Shown here: positions 1-10,736 of the stretch, piece after piece
Layout: the number at the start of each line of letters is the position of its first letter
Numbering within the stretch: the first letter of the stretch is position 1
From: Streptosporangiaceae bacterium
Lineage (GTDB): Bacteria > Actinomycetota > Actinomycetes > Streptosporangiales > Streptosporangiaceae
Length of the DNA: 10,775 nucleotides
Direction: 5' to 3'
NCBI GenBank assembly: GCA_030038715.1
Contig: JASHSO010000092.1
Coordinates: forward strand, 1 to 10,775
The notes under the pieces: generated by a model
Told to the model about the DNA's origin: nothing
Databases searched by the model: none
What the model saw: the letters and a program-made list of their open reading frames with translations, nothing else
Position numbers and translations under genes: made by a program

Positions 1-297
1 GATCTTCCCGCTTTCCCTAATCACCCAGTCCTCAATCTCGGCAGCGTTCGCCTCCCACAGCCCGGCCGCCCTACGCAGGATCGCTGACCGCTCGGTATGC
101 GGAAGGATGGCCCAGGCCGGCTGCGCCGCGGCAGCCTGGTGCGCAGCGCGTGCGACATCGGCCGGCGTCGCGATGCCGATGCGGCCTAGCTCGCGGCCGG
201 TGGCGGGCTCCCTGACGGGCATGTCGCCGCCCTCAGGGGCGATCCAGCCGCCCGAGTACACCTGCCCGGTCCAGGTTTCTTCCTTCAGGAATGACAT
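1..297 (-). CDS. Benzaldehyde dehydrogenase-like aldehyde dehydrogenase, N-terminal part (runs off the window)
   Basis: Ninety-nine codons are readable from an ATG at 297 to the left edge with no stop. The start is supported by a purine-rich GAGGAAG two bases upstream. The protein opens MSFLKEETWTGQVYSGGW, then has a PATGRELGRIG segment, an AAHQAAAAQPAW helix and WVIRESGKI. This is the N-terminal layout of NAD(P)-dependent aldehyde dehydrogenases, and the WTGQ-YSGGW opening and AQPAW helix resemble the benzaldehyde dehydrogenase (XylC-like) branch. Such cytosolic enzymes oxidise aromatic aldehydes to the acids. The cofactor lysine and the catalytic cysteine and glutamate lie outside the window, so activity cannot be judged. 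Its promoter carries a dyad shared with the gene at 4211. The ALDH family is certain; the aromatic substrate is inferred from similarity I recall. Confidence 0.88.
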   Translation of the reverse strand, partial: MSFLKEETWTGQVYSGGWIAPEGGDMPVREPATGRELGRIGIATPADVARAAHQAAAAQPAWAILPHTERSAILRRAAGLWEANAAEIEDWVIRESGKI

Positions 298-351: not shown

Positions 352-392
352 TAGTCACAGCGAGACTACTGTCCTGGGCGAGGCGATGTCCA
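352..392 (-). promoter_or_regulatory. Promoter with overlapping dyad operator for the leftward aldehyde dehydrogenase (site 1)
   Basis: On the minus strand a -35-like TGGACA (387-392) is followed after 18 bases by TAGTCT (363-368). This predicts a start near 356 and a leader of about 60 bases. The -10 box is embedded in CAGTAGTCTCGCTGTGACTA (352-371, minus strand). Its dyad is GTAGTC, 7 bases, GACTAC (perfect 6-bp arms at 351-356 and 364-369). The same 20-mer with two central changes lies upstream of the gene at 4211. Protein bound here would cover the -10 and start site, so repression is the simplest reading. The dyad and repeat are seen directly; promoter and operator functions are inferred. 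Confidence 0.6.
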
Positions 393-630
393 TGACGCAA
401 CTGCGACGCCGGGACGACGACGGAGGCTGTGATGACCTCGGTGGCGACGCGAATACTGGTCAGATCACGGCAGCCGACCGGGCGCCACCGCTGTCCAGGA
501 CGAGTGGCCCATTCGGCGGCTCCAGCCAGACCGAAGCCGACCGCGAATCCGCGCAGCCATGGGGCGTTCGAGTTCACCCGTACGTCGTGAGCGTTCCGTC
601 TTCCTAGCGACCAACGGAGGTCAGCAGACG
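393..630. other. Non-coding remainder of the divergent intergenic region
   Basis: The gap between the two divergent aldehyde dehydrogenase genes is 333 bases (298-630). Beyond the leftward promoter and hairpin I see no convincing gene here. The only clear element is GGAGG at 616-620, the ribosome binding site of the rightward gene. No strong -35/-10 pair for that gene could be picked out, and the dyad of site 1 is not repeated near it. Confidence 0.5.
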
Positions 631-2130
631 ATGAGCATGGCCGATGAGATCAAGGCGCCGCTGCGCAACACCGACCGATTCTTCATCGGCGGCGTATGGG
701 TGCAGCCTTCATCGAGCGCGACGATCGACGTTATCGACTCGGGGACGGAAGAGGTGTACTTCAGCGTTGCCGAGGCGCAGGCGAGCGACATCTCGCGGGC
801 GGTCCGGGCGGCCCGGCACGCGTTCGACCAGGGACCCTGGCCGCGGATGACGCACGGGCAGCGGGCCGAGTACATGCGCGCGATCGCGTCCGGCGTCAGG
901 GACCGGGCCAACGCCCTCGGCCAGATCTGGCCCAGGGAGTCGGGTGGCCTGCATGTCCTCGCCCCGTACTTTGCGGGGGACGCCGCTCATACCTTCGAGT
1001 ACTACGCCGACCTGGCCGAGACGTTCAGCTGGGAGGAGCCCGCACAGCCGACGGCCGGCGGCGAGTTCGCCCTCATCGTCCGGGAGCCTGTCGGCGTCGT
1101 CGGCGCGATCATCCCGTGGAACGTCCCAATCGGGCTGCTGGCCAGTAAGGTCGCCCCAGCGCTGATCGCCGGCTGCACCGTCATCCTGAAGTCTTCACCA
1201 GAAGCGCCGGGTGAGGGGTATCTGGTAGCCGAAGCAGCACAGGCAGCGGGGCTGCCACCGGGCGTGCTCAACGTCGTAACCGCCGATCGTGAGGTGTCCG
1301 AGATGCTGGTGCGAGACCCCGGCGTCGACAAGATCGCCTTCACCGGGTCTACAGCCGCGGGACGCCGGATCGCCTCCATTTGCGGCGAGCGGATTGCCCG
1401 CTGCACCCTTGAACTGGGCGGGAAGTCGGCGGCGGTGATCCTCGATGACATGGACATCGCGACCGCTGCCCAGGCCATCGCCGGAGCAGAGTGCTTCCTG
1501 TCCGGCCAGGTCTGCTCCTCGCTGACCAGAATCGTTATTCCTGCTGGCCGCCACGACGAGTTCGTTGACGCGCTGGCCGACACGTTCTCGAAGGTACGGG
1601 TCGGCAATCCGTTCGACGTGCGAACCCAGATGGGTCCGCTGGTGGCAAGCCGGCAGCGGGACCGGGTCGAGGGGTACATCGCTCGTGGCGTCGCCGATGG
1701 GGCGACGCTGGTCACGGGCGGCGGGCGGCCCAAGGACCTGGACCGGGGCTTCTACGTCGAGCCAACCGTGTTCGGCAATGTCGACAACTCCTCGGTGATC
1801 GCGCAGGAAGAAATCTTCGGCCCAGTCCTGTCGGTTGTCCCGGCACGGGACGAGGCCGATGCGATTCGGGTCGCCAATGACACGATCTACGGACTGAACG
1901 CGTCGGTGTTCACCAAAGACGTCGACCGTGCCCGCATGGTTGCTGGGCAGCTGCGGTCGGGAACTGTCGGTCACAACGCCTTCCGGACCGACTTCGGGAT
2001 CGCGTTCGGGGGTTTCAAACAGTCCGGCATTGGCCGCGAGGGCGGGATCGAGGGCCTGCGCAATTACCTCGAAGTCAAGACGGTCATCCTCGAAGGCCGC
2101 CCAACTGGGTACAAGAACCAAGCCGGCTAG
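631..2130 (+). CDS. NAD(P)-dependent aldehyde dehydrogenase
   Basis: This 499-residue protein has the usual ALDH length and oxidises an aldehyde to a carboxylate in the cytosol. Visible family elements, in order: the PWN segment with Asn164; cofactor-binding Lys187 in VILKSSPE (KPSE is more usual); FTGST near 237-241; general-base Glu261 in LELGGKS; nucleophile Cys295 in GQVCSS; QEEIFGPV with Glu394; and a FGGFKQSGIGRE tail. All catalytic residues are present, so it should be active. The ATG at 631 is chosen because GGAGG ends 10 bases upstream. The open frame extends back to 559, but that extension is not ALDH-like. The substrate is unknown. The divergent benzaldehyde-dehydrogenase-like gene hints at related chemistry, but this one lacks the shared dyad. 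The methyltransferase follows after 244 bases. Confidence 0.95.
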   Translation: MSMADEIKAPLRNTDRFFIGGVWVQPSSSATIDVIDSGTEEVYFSVAEAQASDISRAVRAARHAFDQGPWPRMTHGQRAEYMRAIASGVRDRANALGQIWPRESGGLHVLAPYFAGDAAHTFEYYADLAETFSWEEPAQPTAGGEFALIVREPVGVVGAIIPWNVPIGLLASKVAPALIAGCTVILKSSPEAPGEGYLVAEAAQAAGLPPGVLNVVTADREVSEMLVRDPGVDKIAFTGSTAAGRRIASICGERIARCTLELGGKSAAVILDDMDIATAAQAIAGAECFLSGQVCSSLTRIVIPAGRHDEFVDALADTFSKVRVGNPFDVRTQMGPLVASRQRDRVEGYIARGVADGATLVTGGGRPKDLDRGFYVEPTVFGNVDNSSVIAQEEIFGPVLSVVPARDEADAIRVANDTIYGLNASVFTKDVDRARMVAGQLRSGTVGHNAFRTDFGIAFGGFKQSGIGREGGIEGLRNYLEVKTVILEGRPTGYKNQAG

Positions 2131-2374
2131 TGTCCTCGCCCCGTCACTCGTCCAGCCACGCAAGGCGGGCAACGGGGCGAGTCGATCTCAGAGCCGACCG
2201 GGCGGGCGAGGCTGTCCTGCGGGTTGCCGCCGAGCGCGTCACGGCCTACTACTTACCAAGCACGGGCCGCCGCCAAGCGCGGACGGTACAGGGTCGGCGT
2301 CGAGCAAGGGCACCAGAACATACGGCGCGCCACAGCCGGTCGGTGTTGCGTATCGCCTGTTCAAGGGGAAACTT

Positions 2375-2998
2375 GTGACTGGCTCGGCCGGGGAGATGTG
2401 GGACCGGCGCTACGCCGAGCGAGCCTGGCCGACCGATCCAGACCCCTACCTGGTCGAGCTGGCCGCCCCGCTGCCGCCCGGTCGCGGACTCGACCTCGGT
2501 GCCGGACCGGGCCGCAACAGCTTGTGGCTTGCCGCAAAAGGCTGGGACATGACCCTGGTCGATGTGTCCAGAGTCGGTCTGGACCAGGCACTCGCTGCCG
2601 CAGGCGCCCTCGCGGCCACGATCGCCCCCGTGCTTGCCGACGTGTACGACTGGCAGCCCGACGCGGCGGGCTTCGATCTCGTCATCGTCGCCAACCTCCA
2701 CCCAGAACCCGATGCTCTAGCCGTCGTCCTCGCCCGCGCCACTTACGCACTTCGCCCCGGCGGTCACCTGTACGCCGTAGGGCATCACGTCAGCAACCTG
2801 GGCCGTCACGGGCCGCCCGATCGCGGCCGACTCTTCACGGCCGATCGCCTGCGAGGCGCCCTGCCTGCGGGCCTTCGCGTCGATGTGCTCGACACTCGCC
2901 CTCGCGCGTTCGGGCACGACCGCCCCGACGAGCCGAACGAATCGGTCGTGCTCACCTGGGCTACTAAACTGTCAACGCTCCGCCACATCCACCGGTGA
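2375..2998 (+). CDS. Class I SAM-dependent methyltransferase
   Basis: The 207-residue protein starts at a GTG with AAGGGG six bases upstream (2363-2368). The frame is open further upstream, but those codons do not look coding. The N-terminus (GEMWDRRYAE) resembles small Rossmann-fold methyltransferases of the TehB/thiopurine-methyltransferase-like group. Motif I is LDLGAGPGRN (Asp40 to Asn48), which binds S-adenosylmethionine. Asp63 in TLVDVS ends strand 2 and should contact the ribose hydroxyls. FDLVIVANLH (100-109) corresponds to motif IV, and ALRPGGHLYAVG to the motif VI loop. No membrane segment or signal peptide is seen. The acceptor substrate cannot be told; detoxifying methylation is one role known for relatives. 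It may be transcribed with the upstream aldehyde dehydrogenase, but the 244-base gap leaves this open. Confidence 0.9.
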   Translation: MTGSAGEMWDRRYAERAWPTDPDPYLVELAAPLPPGRGLDLGAGPGRNSLWLAAKGWDMTLVDVSRVGLDQALAAAGALAATIAPVLADVYDWQPDAAGFDLVIVANLHPEPDALAVVLARATYALRPGGHLYAVGHHVSNLGRHGPPDRGRLFTADRLRGALPAGLRVDVLDTRPRAFGHDRPDEPNESVVLTWATKLSTLRHIHR

Positions 2999-3507
2999 GT
3001 GCCTCTGCTCACCTGGCGCGGCTGGCGTCGGAGCAGGAACGGAGTCTGCCGGAAGGCACCGGGCCGTCAGGGTAGCGCGGGCGGTCCAGCCAGCAGAGCA
3101 GCCGCGCGTGGTCAAGGCCGCCCGGCTCATGCCGCCCTTCCCGGTAAGGCTGGGCGATCTTTACAGTGCCGCGCTCGCTCCGGTTGAGGCCCGCCTGGAT
3201 TGGCGTGGTCCCCCGCTCATGGTGGCTGGTGGGACAACGCCCGCCCAGGCGAAGTGCGAGTTCCGCTGGCGTCATGCTGGCCCCGGACGTCAGCGCGTGT
3301 GCCTTGGAGATGTCTCGCGTCCAGATGCCGGCGCTGAGACTGTACGTGGTGTCGTTCGCCTGTGCGGCTATTTCGTCGCGGCTGCTGAACTTCTCTGCTA
3401 CCACGACCGGGCCGAAGATCTCCTCGCGGACGACCTCCATGTCCCGCGTACAAGCCCCGGCGCGTGCAGCGGCGGCAGACCTACGCGTTTGCCTGGAGGA
3501 GACAGGA
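2999..3507. other. Gene-poor stretch between methyltransferase and PadR regulator
   Basis: These 509 bases contain no intact gene that I can support. Several long open frames cross them on both strands, but none has a consistent start, ribosome binding site or recognisable protein sequence beyond the aldehyde dehydrogenase relic at 3291-3443. The rest looks like eroded former coding DNA, an inference from the relic within it. No insertion-sequence ends or long direct repeats were noticed. Confidence 0.5.
3291..3443 (-). pseudogene. Relic of an aldehyde dehydrogenase gene (C-terminal-half fragment)
   Basis: About 51 codons on the minus strand read as a typical ALDH segment: DMEVVREEIFGPVVV, then a variable stretch with DEIAAQANDTTYSL, then AGIWTRDISKAHAL. 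In intact enzymes this block lies roughly at residues 380-430. It contains the conserved EEIFGPV glutamate and the AND-Y-L motif. Similarity stops abruptly on both sides. The preceding cysteine-containing domain and the following FGG-KQSG-GRE tail are absent in all three frames I checked nearby, although the frame stays open. It differs from the corresponding region of the intact gene at 631 (VIAQEEIFGPVLSVV), so it is not a recent duplicate of it. It sits 64 bases downstream of the PadR gene on the same strand, which suggests a former regulator-target pair. Confidence 0.8.
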
Positions 3508-4050
3508 CTACTCGGGAACAGCTTGGAGGGCGAGGGCGTCAAGGAAGCGGAGGGTCGCCGCCATGGTCTCGCAGCGCCACAAGACCAGGGTCTTGTCGAA
3601 GCCCGTGGCCGCGTCGAGGCGGTCGTGAAGGGCACGCGCGACAGGGACCAGCTGCTCCCGCTGCGCCTTCACCAGCCGCCTGGGGTCACCGCCCTGCCGG
3701 GCAAGCAGGGCGAGCTTTACCAGCAGTTCCGACCGGACGTCGCGGTTGTGGCAGGCGGGTCGGGTCAGCCAGCCCGCAGCGGCCCGGCGCCCGGCAGGAG
3801 TCGCGTCCACCAGTGAGCGAACCGGTCCCTGGCTTGACGGCTGATGCTCGGTGGCCTGTACCAGGCCCAGATGCTCGAGCCTCTGCAGCGCTCGGTACAC
3901 CACCGGCTTGGGAATACGCCAGACCCGGCCCATCTCGCCCTCCGCGCTCAGTAGCACGGCGAGCGCGAACCCGTGTGTGGGCTGCTCGCAGATCAGGCAG
4001 AGCACCAGCCACTCAGCCAGTGAGAGCGACGGTTCCCCCTCGGCAGCCAC
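3508..4050 (-). CDS. PadR-family transcriptional regulator
   Basis: This 180-residue protein begins at a GTG that directly follows an in-frame TGA, so no longer form is possible. Residues about 9-95 form the PadR winged helix: SLAEWLVLCLI, the characteristic PTHGFALA turn (24-31), a recognition-helix region PKPVVYRALQRLEHLGLV (47-64), and a wing ending in DATPAGRRA. Residues about 100-180 are helical (VRSELLVKLALLARQG...), as expected of the PadR C-terminal dimerisation arm. PadR proteins are usually repressors released by small phenolic or hydrophobic ligands. Neighbouring aldehyde-oxidising genes, intact and decayed, fit that theme. No Shine-Dalgarno sequence precedes the start; it is probably leaderless. 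It is divergent from the zinc-finger/HTH gene and is one candidate to bind the shared dyad. Confidence 0.92.
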   Translation of the reverse strand: MAAEGEPSLSLAEWLVLCLICEQPTHGFALAVLLSAEGEMGRVWRIPKPVVYRALQRLEHLGLVQATEHQPSSQGPVRSLVDATPAGRRAAAGWLTRPACHNRDVRSELLVKLALLARQGGDPRRLVKAQREQLVPVARALHDRLDAATGFDKTLVLWRCETMAATLRFLDALALQAVPE

Positions 4051-4062
4051 TCACCCAGGTTA
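4051..4062 (-). promoter_or_regulatory. Probable leaderless promoter of the PadR gene
   Basis: On the minus strand TAACCT (4057-4062) matches the TANNNT -10 pattern and lies six bases before the GTG start. Transcription would then begin at or next to the start codon, consistent with the lack of a Shine-Dalgarno sequence. Leaderless genes with exactly this spacing are common in actinobacteria. No convincing -35 box was found. Confidence 0.5.
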
Positions 4063-4148
4063 TTACCGCGTTCCCGCCTGCTGGCCGATCATCAGCGTTC
4101 GGTCGGCAGCGTGCTGGCCGACTGCGGCCTCCGGCAGCCGGGCGGCGC

Positions 4149-4188
4149 ATGACAGGACCCGGAAACCTCAGTAGTCTCAATGTGACTA
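4149..4188 (+). promoter_or_regulatory. Promoter with overlapping dyad operator for the zinc-finger/HTH gene (site 2)
   Basis: ATGACA (4149-4154), 17 bases, then TAGTCT (4172-4177) forms a good -35/-10 pair, predicting a start near 4184 and a leader of roughly 27 bases. The -10 lies inside CAGTAGTCTCAATGTGACTA (4169-4188), 18 of 20 bases identical to site 1. The dyad is TAGTC, 7 bases, GACTA, and two inner pairs (CA with TG) also match. Outer bases CTCAG and CTGAG extend the symmetry with a one-base offset. The overlap with the -10 and start site suggests repression. The binder could be the PadR protein, the downstream protein acting on itself, or a factor outside the window. Confidence 0.65.
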
Positions 4189-4210: not shown

Positions 4211-5299
4211 TTGTCTGCTGAAATCATCAGCGCAGCCGGCGGGCGCCGCCGCGGCGGGTGGCCGCGGCCCGGCGTGGGGCTGCGTCCCGTGGTCGGCGTC
4301 CTGGCCGACGGTGCCCCGTTCTATGCGCCGGTCGGCGAAGTCGCGGTCGAAGGCTCGCTGGTGACATGCCACTTGTGCGGCCGGTCGTTCCGTTCGGTTA
4401 CCGCCCACCTGACCGCGCATGGCTGGACCAAGCGGCAGTATTGCGAGGCCTTCGGGCTGGAGTTCGGCCAGTCCCTGGAGGGACCGGAAACCCGTAAGCT
4501 CCGCGCCGCCGCTTTCACGGCCCGGCTGTTGTTCGAGCCAGCCGTCCGCGAAGGCAGCGCCGCCGGCCGTCATCGGGCCCGCACCGGCGACCTCGCCCGG
4601 GACGCGGCCGCGGCCGCGCGCGGCCGCCCGTTCCCCCAGCAGCGCCGCAGGAAAGTCATGCGAGCGCGGGCGGCAAACCCGTCTCCGCGGCTAGCCGAGC
4701 CCGGCAGAATGCACGCTGATCGCCGCCTCCGGGCCACGGCCGAGCAGGCAGCCCGGCAGGTCGGCTATCCCGATATCGGGGCGTTCGTCCTCGCCCGGAC
4801 CCAGGACGGCGCCAGTATGGCCGCGATCAGCCGTGCAGCCGGGCTGCACAAGGACTGGCTGTCCCGCCACCTCGGCCGCGTTGACCCGGCCGTCGCGGCC
4901 GCGGCGCGGCAGTACTCCGGAGAACTGCCCGACCTCCGATTGCGCCCGATTCTGCGGCGGCTCGGATACCCCAACGTGGGCAGCTATCTGCGGGAGCGGC
5001 ACGTTGAGCAACATCAGACCGTCAACGCGATCGCCGACGAGCTCGGCCTCTCCCATCATGCCGTCAGCGCGGCACTACGCAGGCATGGTCTAGCCCCGGT
5101 CCCCCACTCCGCCAAGCGCCATGAAGCTCTGCAGCGGGCAGCTGACGTCGCCGGCCGCCTGGGCTACGCAGACGTGGCCGGTTACATCGGCGACCGCAGA
5201 TCCGCAGGCTGGACCTGGAAGGCTATCGCCGCCGAGTCCGCCCAGCCGGAGTCCTGGCTGCGCCGACACGCAGCCAGGCCGACACAGTCCGCGCAGTGA
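4211..5299 (+). CDS. MucR/Ros-type zinc-finger protein with three C-terminal HTH-like repeats
   Basis: The 362-residue protein starts at a TTG with GGGAG seven bases upstream (4199-4203). No ATG lies before the zinc finger. Residues 51-83 match the MucR/Ros DNA-binding domain: Cys53, Cys56, His66 and His70 (C-X2-C-X9-H-X3-H), then GWTKRQYCEAFGL. A basic, Arg/Ala-rich linker follows (about 95-175). Then come three similar segments at about 181-222, 248-292 and 313-354, each with a GY-x-[DN]-[IV] turn (GY at 185, 252 and 318), an aromatic three residues on, and an AI/IA...L..H helix pair that reads as a helix-turn-helix. All four zinc ligands are present. It is probably a cytoplasmic DNA-binding regulator. 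Targets are unknown; the dyad over its own promoter makes autoregulation possible. MucR identity is firm; the repeat interpretation is mine. Its stop overlaps the next gene. Confidence 0.82.
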   Translation: MSAEIISAAGGRRRGGWPRPGVGLRPVVGVLADGAPFYAPVGEVAVEGSLVTCHLCGRSFRSVTAHLTAHGWTKRQYCEAFGLEFGQSLEGPETRKLRAAAFTARLLFEPAVREGSAAGRHRARTGDLARDAAAAARGRPFPQQRRRKVMRARAANPSPRLAEPGRMHADRRLRATAEQAARQVGYPDIGAFVLARTQDGASMAAISRAAGLHKDWLSRHLGRVDPAVAAAARQYSGELPDLRLRPILRRLGYPNVGSYLRERHVEQHQTVNAIADELGLSHHAVSAALRRHGLAPVPHSAKRHEALQRAADVAGRLGYADVAGYIGDRRSAGWTWKAIAAESAQPESWLRRHAARPTQSAQ

Positions 5300-6512: not shown

Positions 6513-6938
6513 TTACAAGTCAGCCGGCAGGACTGTAAAGACGCCGCCCTGCGGTGGCTTTGCCGCCCGGAAATGCCTCTGATCGAACGTCAGGACCCGC
6601 GTGGTGCCGTAGCGCTGCGGAGCGGCCAGGATCATGGTATGCGCATCGGATATGCCGAGCTTAAGGTCGGCATACTGTTCGACCAGTATCGCGACGCGTA
6701 CAGCATCCTGAGCGGTGAAGGCTGCGACCTGGTAGACGCTATCGGCGAGATCGTTCAGCAAGATCAGCTCCGCCTGGACTCCCGCCCGGGTAAGCAACAT
6801 GTAGTCGAGTTCGGCTAGCACGAAAGGCGAAACGACCAGGCTGCCGGCCTCCGCATCAAGCAACTTCCGCACAGCAGGGCCGCTCGGCTCTAGCTGATCG
6901 TAGGCAGCCAGCAGGCCACTGGTATCGCAGAGGATCAC
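6513..6938 (-). CDS. VapC-like PIN-domain toxin (ribonuclease)
   Basis: This 141-residue protein is the toxin half of a type II toxin-antitoxin pair. The PIN fold is recognisable by its acidic metal-binding residues: Asp5 in ILCDTSGLLAA, Glu43 in SPFVLAELDYML, Asp98 in LGISDAHTMILA, and a fourth acidic position at Asp119 in VLTFDQRHF. All are present, so it is probably an active Mg2+-dependent endoribonuclease; VapC toxins typically cut tRNA or rRNA. The start codon overlaps the antitoxin stop by four bases (ATGA), so the two are translationally coupled with the antitoxin first, the usual vapBC order. The RNA target cannot be predicted. Confidence 0.92.
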   Translation of the reverse strand: MILCDTSGLLAAYDQLEPSGPAVRKLLDAEAGSLVVSPFVLAELDYMLLTRAGVQAELILLNDLADSVYQVAAFTAQDAVRVAILVEQYADLKLGISDAHTMILAAPQRYGTTRVLTFDQRHFRAAKPPQGGVFTVLPADL

Positions 6939-7162
6939 AGCTCGCCGAAACCCTCGGCGAGCACCTCGTCCACCTTGTGCGCGAGCCCCGTGTCGGTGAA
7001 TCGGATCGTCCCCCAGCGGCCGCGCTTGCGAGGAAGCACTGCATCGGTGCGCTGCTCAATGGCTGTACGAATGAACTCGGCCTCCGACTGGCCAGATCGA
7101 CGAGCCGCCTCAGCTACTCGTTGCTTGGTGTTCTCCGGAAGATACACCGTTGTCTTAACCAT
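6935..7162 (-). CDS. VapB-like ribbon-helix-helix antitoxin
   Basis: This 75-residue protein has a CopG/Arc-type N-terminus: the MVKTTVYLPE strand (1-10), a helix NTKQRVAEAARRSG, a turn, and a second helix SEAEFIRTAIEQR. Two copies of this unit would bind a palindrome as a dimer. The C-terminal tail (about 45-75, ending EVLAEGFGEL) should be the extended toxin-binding segment. The stop overlaps the VapC-like start by four bases. No Shine-Dalgarno sequence precedes the ATG, but a -10-like TACCAT lies six bases upstream, so a leaderless transcript is likely. The pair is probably autorepressed through the palindrome in that promoter. Confidence 0.92.
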   Translation of the reverse strand: MVKTTVYLPENTKQRVAEAARRSGQSEAEFIRTAIEQRTDAVLPRKRGRWGTIRFTDTGLAHKVDEVLAEGFGEL

Positions 7163-8639: not shown

Positions 8640-10736
8640 TCATGGCTGAGCGCCCGAAGAGGCGTTCGTGCCGGGTCTGGATGGGTCGGCCGCGTCGCCG
8701 TCGCAGCTGTGCGCCCCGCGTGCGCGGGCCTTCGGCGCCGGGCGGGCGGAGACCGGCGCGAGCAGGCTGACCCTGTCCCCGGCCCCCAGCGTCAGGTCAG
8801 GGCTGGGATCTTGCAGGGCCCGGTCGTGCAGCACCGCGACGGGTATGCTGCCGGACGGCCAGCTGACGCTGCCCAGCAGCCGTCCCGCCGCGGGTGAATC
8901 GTTACCGATGGCAACTTCGAGCACCCGGTAGCCGGACAGCGGCGTGGGTGCCGGCTCGGGCGCGTCTGGCTGTGCCAGACCTGGCTGCCCCTGCAGGCGC
9001 GGCGGCGCTGGCGCCGTTCCCTCCGCCGACGGGGCGGTGCCGATCCGGGCAGCCACCGTCCGCAGCACGCTGTGGTTGGTGATCCAGCCGAGCACCTGCC
9101 TCCCGTCCGCCGACAGGACCGGCAGGCCATCGCGTCCGTAGATTTCCAGCTGGCGCAGCGTCTGCGTGAGCGACTCGCCGGAGTAGACGGCCTGCGGGAC
9201 GGCCTCGTAGACCAGCTGGCCCGGCAGCTGACCGTCCGGCTGCCCGGTTCCACCGCCATCTTGGCGGTCTGGTACCAACAGCGCGGCCGGGAACGGGCGC
9301 ATCGCCTCCGCGGCCTTGAGGTCCCCGAAAGCCCGCCACGGCGCGGCGCGATCGACGTCCTGGCCGCGGCGCAGCAGCTTGGTGGTGTAGATGGTGCCGT
9401 AGCTCAGCGCGCGCGAGGTGGCGGTGGCGATGGCCACCGCGAGCATGACCGGCAGGGTGAGGGTGTAGTCGCCGGTCATTTCCACGACGCTGGCGACCGA
9501 GGTCAGCGGCGCGCGGGCGGCGGAGGCGAATACCGCGCCCATCGCCACGACCGCGTACAGGGCAGGCTGCCCGGCGGCCGGACCGAAGACGTGGCCGGCG
9601 ATCTCGCCGAAGGCCATCCCGGACGTGACGCCGATGAACAGCGACGGAGCGAACACGCCGCCGGAGCCGCCGATGCCCAGCGTGGTACTGCAGGCGATGA
9701 TCTTCCCGGCGCACAGCACAAGCAGGAACCACAGCACGTAGTTGTGGGCCACCGCCTTGTACATCACCGGGTACCCGACGCCGTACATCTGCGGCAGCGC
9801 CAGCAGGATCAGCCCGAGCGCGATGCCGCCGACCGCCGGGCGGGCCCACTCTGGCCGGCTCTTCCATACCAGGTCCCATAGGTCCTCGACCTTATACAGC
9901 ACGGTCTTGAAAAGCAGCCCGATCAGCCCGGCCACCACCGCCAGCACCGCGACCAGCAGGTAGTCGGCCGGGTGAACCAGCGTGATGCCAGGCGGGAAGC
10001 CGTGCAGGAACGGCCGGTTGCCCAGGAACGGGATGGCCACCACGTCCGCGACCATCGCCGACAGCATCACCGTGAACAGCGCGTCGATCGAGAACTCCCG
10101 CAGGATTATCTCGACTCCGAAGAACACCCCTGTGATCGGGGCGTTGAAGGTTGCGGCGATGCCACCGCCCGCGCCGCACGCAACCAGGATCCGCATCCGG
10201 TTCTCCGGCATCTTCACCCACTGGCCGAAGCTGGAAGCCAGCGCGGAGCCGATCTGCACGATGGGCCCCTCCCGGCCGACCGACCCGCCGACGCCGATGC
10301 ACAGCGCCGAGGCGACGGCCTTGACGACGCTGACCTGCGGGCGGATCCGGCCGCCGTTCTCCGCGACCGCGATCATCACCTCAGGAACACCGTGGCCACG
10401 GGCTTCGCGCGCGTACCGGTAGATCAGCGGCCCGTAGATGACGCCGCCGATGACCGGGATGACGACGAAGAACCCCAGCCCAAGGAACGCCAGGTGCGAG
10501 CTGCCCACGTAACCCTGCTGGCCAAATTGCGAATGCCCGGTGGCGAGCCAGGTGAAGAAGTAGATCAGGTAGCGGAAAACCACCGCGCCCAGCCCGGACC
10601 CAGCGCCGACCAGCAGGGCGACGACGAACAGCCCGGCGCGCGAGTCGCGCAGCGCATCGGCTGTCCTGGCCGCCCACCTCGAGCTACGCGGCGCGCTCTC
10701 CCCCGGGTTGCCGGCAGTCGTGCGGCCTGCGGTCAT
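8640..10736 (-). CDS. CLC-family chloride channel/transporter with CBS and TrkA-C-like C-terminal regions
   Basis: The 698-residue membrane protein has about 450 residues of CLC core. Signature motifs: GHGVPEV (114-120; GSGIP in the E. coli protein), GREGP with gating Glu156, GGVFAP (359-364), and Tyr450 matching the inner-gate tyrosine. The internal proton-glutamate position, by alignment of TFNAP-x8-E, is Ile210 rather than Glu. After the core, residues about 470-565 contain CBS-type sequence (SLTQTLRQLEIYGRDGLPVL, then VLGWITNHSVL) interrupted by a low-complexity insert at about 491-508. A Pro/Ala-rich linker (567-600) follows, then a TrkA-C-like region (601-660) and a hydrophilic tail. 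CBS and TrkA-C domains in other transporters bind nucleotides or small ligands, so gating by a cytosolic ligand is plausible. The ATG at 10736 lacks an obvious ribosome binding site; its promoter lies beyond the window. Confidence 0.93.
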   Translation of the reverse strand: MTAGRTTAGNPGESAPRSSRWAARTADALRDSRAGLFVVALLVGAGSGLGAVVFRYLIYFFTWLATGHSQFGQQGYVGSSHLAFLGLGFFVVIPVIGGVIYGPLIYRYAREARGHGVPEVMIAVAENGGRIRPQVSVVKAVASALCIGVGGSVGREGPIVQIGSALASSFGQWVKMPENRMRILVACGAGGGIAATFNAPITGVFFGVEIILREFSIDALFTVMLSAMVADVVAIPFLGNRPFLHGFPPGITLVHPADYLLVAVLAVVAGLIGLLFKTVLYKVEDLWDLVWKSRPEWARPAVGGIALGLILLALPQMYGVGYPVMYKAVAHNYVLWFLLVLCAGKIIACSTTLGIGGSGGVFAPSLFIGVTSGMAFGEIAGHVFGPAAGQPALYAVVAMGAVFASAARAPLTSVASVVEMTGDYTLTLPVMLAVAIATATSRALSYGTIYTTKLLRRGQDVDRAAPWRAFGDLKAAEAMRPFPAALLVPDRQDGGGTGQPDGQLPGQLVYEAVPQAVYSGESLTQTLRQLEIYGRDGLPVLSADGRQVLGWITNHSVLRTVAARIGTAPSAEGTAPAPPRLQGQPGLAQPDAPEPAPTPLSGYRVLEVAIGNDSPAAGRLLGSVSWPSGSIPVAVLHDRALQDPSPDLTLGAGDRVSLLAPVSARPAPKARARGAHSCDGDAADPSRPGTNASSGAQP

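Follow-up and report, generated by a model that had tools for sequence, protein, structure and literature searches.

Two near-identical inverted repeats stand almost 4 kb apart on contig JASHSO010000092.1 of a Streptosporangiaceae bacterium, and they raise the question of which protein reads them and which genes they place under common control. The contig was analysed as a whole and is called the window here (10,775 nucleotides); it comes from a draft assembly of 607 contigs and 3.35 Mb, which is 72.7% complete. An earlier note on this DNA had proposed a regulon joining an aldehyde-oxidising enzyme to a regulator, with a PadR-family protein or a zinc-finger protein as candidate repressor. Comparison with related genomes indicates that the two dyads are probably operators of the PadR protein encoded at 3508-4050 (minus strand), the proposed autorepressor of a molybdenum and aldehyde-oxidation regulon; binding, repression and effector are predicted here from sequence.

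Operator 1 (predicted; 352-368, minus strand) reads TAGTCTCGCTGTGACTA on its own strand and lies between divergent aldehyde dehydrogenase genes, labelled ALDH-c and ALDH-a (these labels, and ALDH-b below, were coined in this analysis). Operator 2 (predicted; 4172-4188, plus strand) reads TAGTCTCAATGTGACTA and lies between padR and a divergent mucR-like zinc-finger gene. Both are full 17-bp dyads, exact to the symmetric form TAGTCWCNNNGWGACTA, and the 17-mer TAGTCTCNNTGTGACTA is exact at both places. The TAGTC-N7-GACTA symmetry described in the earlier note is thus present in full, and its match of 18 of 20 bases between the two 20-mers was confirmed by recount. Chance is a poor explanation of the match, as the note had also held: at up to three mismatches, TAGTCTCNNTGTGACTA has four matches in the window (two places on both strands) versus a mean of 0.07 in dinucleotide shuffles, and the composition of the window predicts 2.5e-5 exact dyads per 10.8 kb, or about 0.008 per 3.35 Mb. 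The draft genome holds the exact symmetric dyad twice. A genome-wide scan, proposed earlier as a check, revealed no spread of copies, the two window sites being the only ones with at most two mismatches to TAGTCTCNNTGTGACTA. The symmetric dyad was scanned genome-wide for exact matches only, the mismatch scan being made with TAGTCTCNNTGTGACTA; at least one further place in the genome (L006) has two mismatches to the symmetric dyad. The genome's sites at three mismatches (L003-L007) gave no match to any reference protein at E 1e-3.

The order along the contig is the start of ALDH-c, operator 1, ALDH-a, a methyltransferase gene (2375-2998), an aldehyde dehydrogenase remnant, padR, operator 2 and the mucR-like gene, beyond which the genes seem unrelated. 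ALDH-c is represented by its N-terminal part (1-297, minus strand; PF00171), as the gene is cut by the contig end, and shows 88% identity to the complete gene of locus L053. ALDH-a (631-2130, plus strand; PF00171 at E 2e-153 for the frame 559-2130) starts 262 bp downstream of operator 1 and is its possible second target. The zinc-finger gene (4211-5299, plus strand) encodes a ROS/MUCR-type C2H2 protein (PF05443, 29.2 bits, cut-off 25.4). As each dyad sits between divergent genes, there are four candidate targets: ALDH-c, ALDH-a, padR and the mucR-like gene. The original assignment of one gene to each site was correct in that both named genes flank the sites, and too narrow in that it missed padR and ALDH-a as further possible targets.

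The dyad is kept at orthologues. Among 100 relatives searched, nine genomes besides the window's carry the zinc-finger gene at 52% identity or more, and in all eight Streptosporangiaceae relatives with an upstream region the dyad stands just upstream of it with at most one mismatch (genome G008, where the gene is cut by a contig end, was left out of this comparison). In these genomes, padR and aldehyde dehydrogenase genes of three kinds are also preceded by dyads. L053 has a site that corresponds to operator 1: it is flanked by the same pair of gene types, and its distance to the ALDH-c start is 55 bp, against 54 bp in the window. Genes of the ALDH-a type have a dyad 35-65 bp upstream in L025, L029, L053, L054, L129 and L132. 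padR and the zinc-finger gene are divergent with one common site in the window, L009, L024, L027 and L030, whereas in L026, L028 and L029 they stand in series and have a site apiece. Exact dyads occur in 22 of 297 family genomes (1 of 297 for a reversed-pattern control), and on our reading 26 of the 27 exact family sites either reach the estimated start of a padR, mucR-like or aldehyde dehydrogenase gene or lie upstream of one by no more than 350 bp. An assigned target was found for 63 of 82 sites, a biased rate, as loci were partly chosen because they hold sites. The comparison of orthologous upstream regions, which the earlier note had called for, thus strongly supports its regulon of aldehyde-oxidising enzymes and regulators, with the same gene types recurring across genera.

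That the two copies arose by chance, or are functionless relics of a mobile element, would agree with their presence on one contig and with genome-wide one-mismatch counts near those of the reversed control (25 versus 20 in 22 genomes; with a looser pattern, 26 versus 11 in 13 genomes). At such frequencies the meaning of one-mismatch sites rests on their position, and these counts speak against the regulon. Exact dyads, however, are very rare (3 of 394 class genomes, in a sample overlapping that of the family), and diverged genera have them in front of the same types of gene; in view of the conservation at orthologues this origin was rejected, and it is hardly credible unless an unrecognised coding or RNA element accounts for that conservation. 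A weak excess of complementary pairs in the sequence-variable flanks of the dyads (110 versus 90 at offsets 1-4, 57 sites, permutation p 0.0006) was set aside as evidence, since related sites are not independent.

The position of the dyads relative to putative promoters suggests how they might act. The hexamers reported earlier are present as described: ATGACA (4149-4154, plus strand) stands 17 bases before TAGTCT at operator 2, and TGGACA (387-392, minus strand) 18 bases before TAGTCT at operator 1, an arrangement of hexamer and spacer that recurs unchanged in L053. Read along the zinc-finger gene, the dyad opens with TAGTCT in all 14 site rows, which come from 12 genomes; read along padR, it has TAGTCA in 23 of 32. 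A TTGACA-like hexamer 16-19 bases before TAGTCT of the zinc-finger gene has a mean match of 3.6 versus 2.4 in shuffled sequences, none of which reached such a value in 1000 trials (21 rows). The dehydrogenase sites, 21 rows taken together, show no -35 enrichment (2.3 versus 2.4 in shuffles). A general sigma-70 promoter scan found no promoter, so the proposal of a -10 box relies on orientation and on the -35 alignment in orthologues. Most probably the -10 box of the zinc-finger gene lies within the dyad, as the note had proposed, and so does that of ALDH-c, where the support comes from one orthologue (L053).

Of the two candidate repressors, PadR is favoured and the zinc-finger protein demoted, since padR retains the dyad even where the zinc-finger gene was not found. 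Orthologues of padR occur in 43 of 297 family genomes. Of 41 upstream regions scored, 25 have a dyad matching at 13-14 of 14 positions, and the PadR identity at such loci goes down to 44% (41 of 44 places were scored; a second place in G120 and partial matches in G333 and G036 were left out). Among these 25 genomes, 14 have no zinc-finger match (E 1e-5), three have a distant partial match and eight have an orthologue. The exact dyad is found in 20 of 43 PadR-positive versus 2 of 254 PadR-negative family genomes (Fisher p 3e-17, a value that overstates certainty, as orthologous sites are not independent events). Many of the genomes are drafts. For 53 of the 56 named PadR loci (L195, L200 and L201 left out), which represent largely the same genomes plus other families, the highest score upstream falls in the range 12-14 for 25 loci and is at most 9 for the other 28, with none between. 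In two distant loci among these 25, the dyads of the divergent modA/padR regions are altered symmetrically in both halves (TAGTGTCAGTGACACTA at 3199-3215 in L196 and TGGTCTCATCGAGACCA at 3886-3902 in L197), which is what a site evolving together with a homodimer would show.

The MucR-like protein might instead bind the dyads and repress its own gene, padR and the dehydrogenases. The constancy of the dyad before its gene, both in presence (all eight relatives) and in orientation (14 of 14 rows), would fit such a role, as would the Saccharopolyspora loci L177, L180 and L184, where the dyad precedes the zinc-finger gene and not padR. This is nevertheless unlikely, given the 17 genomes that keep the dyad before padR with no zinc-finger match or only a distant partial one; for a two-fold dyad, moreover, a homodimer of PadR would be the better partner than a zinc-finger protein whose three helix-turn-helix (HTH) repeats are unlike one another. 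PadR is therefore the likely binder, a choice well supported by the comparison.

Several observations weigh against PadR in this role. Sixteen of the 41 PadR upstream regions score 11 or less (two of them truncated), including all seven tested in genus g53, and 15 of these 16 are no better than shuffles at the 10% level. Similarly, 28 of the 53 named loci lack a dyad upstream of PadR (two truncated), with Pseudonocardia mostly among them. In five of the 17 zinc-finger-poor genomes, 46 of 51-62 candidates were scored. Exact dyads are also present in G047, with no PadR match, and in G008, where no PadR was found. The dyad of G047 lies at C40:46457-46473 (L145), among neighbours that were not recognised. 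In G208, a g53 genome, five of six dyad sites precede dehydrogenase genes, and its PadR may act without autoregulation.

With PadR as the proposed binder of both operators, a dimer would cover TAGTC-N7-GACTA. The left half, TAGTCT, would be the -10 box on the strands of the zinc-finger gene and of ALDH-c; as it looks like such a box, PadR binding should block RNA polymerase, and repression would be the simplest reading of a dyad placed there. Operator 2 would control padR itself and the divergent mucR-like gene, and operator 1 would control ALDH-c and probably also the divergent ALDH-a, putting aldehyde dehydrogenases, padR and the zinc-finger regulator of the window under one switch. In relatives the dyad is also found in front of genes for a StyD-like aldehyde dehydrogenase, for molybdate uptake, for the molybdenum cofactor and for molybdenum hydroxylases.

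The PadR protein (180 amino acids; PF03551, 39.7 bits, cut-off 27) is a member of subfamily 1 by its domain, its size and its predicted structure. The model (predicted local distance difference test score, pLDDT, of 90) has Foldseek matches to PadR structures and shows four helices after the wing, at the size of subfamily 1. In sequence searches the protein matched PadR models, plus TrmB below cut-off; no Mop/TOBE domain was found at E 0.001, and no ModE model matched. As published, subfamily 1 is defined by about 180 amino acids and a C-terminal domain of several helices, and the operator of PadR consists of ATGT and ACAT as an inverted repeat separated by 8-10 bases (PMC3506622). The window protein shares with the subfamily (PadR, AphA and LadR, and VanR by fold) the winged-helix PadR domain, the length of about 180 amino acids with a multi-helix C-terminal part, and an operator, here a predicted one, at its own gene with divergent target genes. 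It differs in the form of the site, TAGTCWC-N3-GWGACTA rather than ATGT/ACAT, and in targets that join aldehyde oxidation to molybdenum genes. The classical ATGT-N8-10-ACAT has no match in the window, and the base counts of the dyad sites differ from it too. PadR proteins would thus gain a predicted operator type unlike the described one.

The regulon extends further in relatives, where a link to molybdenum that was not visible from the window alone becomes apparent: sites resembling the operator lie upstream of modA, MoeA, molybdenum hydroxylase and aldehyde dehydrogenase genes. In 10 of the 56 named loci, the flanks examined around PadR contain modA, modB or Mop at scores above the NCBIfam cut-offs (L171, L174, L186, L191, L192, L193, L196, L197, L198 and L200; L171 covers the same part of a contig as L030, and the proteins scanned were those of L030, while the PadR match of L200 is partial), and a tungstate/molybdate-type transporter below cut-off lies near PadR in L194. 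Dactylosporangium fulvum is one strain that has modABC close to padR. Upstream of the transport genes, a score of at least 11 is reached in 7 of 11 loci (L191, L193, L194, L196, L197, L171 and L024), compared with 1.5% of mononucleotide shuffles, or in 6 of 10 if L024, a locus discovered by way of its site, is excluded. The scores are below 11 in L174 (128 bp examined), L186, L192 (10/14, not counted as a site) and L200.

Sites without an assigned target point the same way. These number 19; five from Saccharopolyspora (L177, L180, L184 and two in L185) were set aside, those of L177, L180 and L184 and one of L185 being placed before the zinc-finger gene. Molybdenum-related genes adjoin 9 of the remaining 14, which are otherwise without a padR, zinc-finger or dehydrogenase target. 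Five of these sites adjoin genes for the large or iron-sulfur subunit of a molybdenum hydroxylase (L134, L136, L138, L139 and L140), one, a weaker case, is about 500 bp from a flavin adenine dinucleotide (FAD) subunit (L058), and the others are at MoeA (L169), at a weakly scoring molybdopterin-oxidoreductase domain (L142) and at a molybdate/tungstate-like transporter below NCBIfam cut-offs (L024). For the large, iron-sulfur and FAD subunits shown by Pfam, this analysis used the labels CoxL, CoxS and CoxM. No molybdenum-related neighbour was found for the sites of L052, L130, L137, L143 and L145. The window's own genome has six molybdenum-hydroxylase domain matches and hence molybdenum enzymes to manage. 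In Acrocarpospora corrugata (L051 and L163), padR with an exact dyad lies directly beside a large frame tentatively identified, without domain models, as a molybdopterin enzyme like formate dehydrogenase.

What the targets have in common is the oxidation of aldehydes, by two classes of enzyme that are unrelated, one dependent on nicotinamide adenine dinucleotide (NAD) and one on molybdenum, together with molybdenum supply. PadR would be released by a signal of molybdenum status or, with lower probability, by an aldehyde or an aromatic acid. The second effector, as in PadR/VanR-type relatives, would place molybdenum genes in the regulon only because molybdenum hydroxylases also oxidise aldehydes. 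It is suggested by ALDH-b, a phenylacetaldehyde-dehydrogenase-like protein (670 bits, below the StyD cut-off of 850) that often adjoins padR, with matches in 16 of the 56 named PadR loci, one a fragment (zinc-finger matches, 18 of 56), and by Foldseek matches that include VanR-vanillate and Bacillus subtilis PadR structures. In distant lineages (L186, L191-L193, L196 and L197), however, PadR sits with molybdate genes and the dehydrogenase probes have no match in the flanks (E 1e-8), which points to molybdenum as the older signal. Molybdenum status is preferred as the effector on these grounds, an aldehyde or aromatic acid being possible but doubtful. Some findings count against the molybdenum link: some of its sites depend on one another (the genes of L136 and L138 form a near-identical pair, as do those of L134 and L139), no molybdenum gene was recognised in the window, and a domain search at E 0.001 found no known molybdate-binding domain in PadR.

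ModE usually controls molybdate transport and molybdenum enzymes. The proposed PadR targets are alike, whereas PadR has no visible sequence relation to ModE and no Mop/TOBE domain. The ModE domain (TIGR00637) is over cut-off in none of the 43 PadR-positive family genomes; matches below cut-off in 31 of the 43, at 30 of 98.5 bits or less, weigh on the other side, and 7 of 14 control genomes match, Escherichia coli among them, two over cut-off. We tentatively suggest that PadR might replace ModE in these Actinomycetota as a sensor of molybdenum or molybdenum cofactor. Shortage of the metal would release modABC and switch on NAD-dependent aldehyde dehydrogenases, which would take over from the aldehyde oxidoreductases that need molybdenum; in this enzyme swap, which would spare molybdenum, the zinc-finger protein would regulate at a second tier. 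If the molybdenum link is true, it provides a candidate molybdenum regulator for actinomycetes in which ModE stays below the cut-off of its model, and aldehyde oxidation may then be a case in which one enzyme replaces another to spare a metal. Among the literature matches listed, mostly outside subscription papers, there is no account of this regulon or of a PadR regulator of molybdenum genes. The regulator, operator sequence and target list are testable, for example in Planotetraspora and Herbidospora.

The 4211-5299 protein resembles ROS/MUCR regulators in its C2H2 finger, which exceeds the cut-off of the family model, and differs from them in adding three helical HTH-like repeats, modelled beside the finger, and in that its gene is here a target rather than the gene of a probable binder. 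The residues C53, C56, H66 and H70 are invariant in 13 sequences. No PDB fold match and no NCBIfam model match was found for the protein at E 0.001. Relatives of the protein occur in Pseudonocardia, Saccharopolyspora, Dactylosporangium, Asanoa and Lapillicoccus.

Beside padR, ALDH-b is reduced to a fragment in two genomes: in the window, a remnant of a StyD-like aldehyde dehydrogenase (3291-3443, minus strand; residues 393-443, 88% identity, Pfam Aldedh fragment), and in L024 (6785-6886). No intact ALDH-b was found in the window's incomplete genome at E 1e-150. G039 has an intact ALDH-b elsewhere (C28), with no dyad within three mismatches in the stretch examined. Among the more distant genes of the window, a PIN-domain gene (6513-7162, minus strand) is preceded by a small overlapping gene of 75 amino acids that looks like an antitoxin, and a chloride-channel-family protein with a TrkA_C domain is encoded at 8640-10736 (minus strand).

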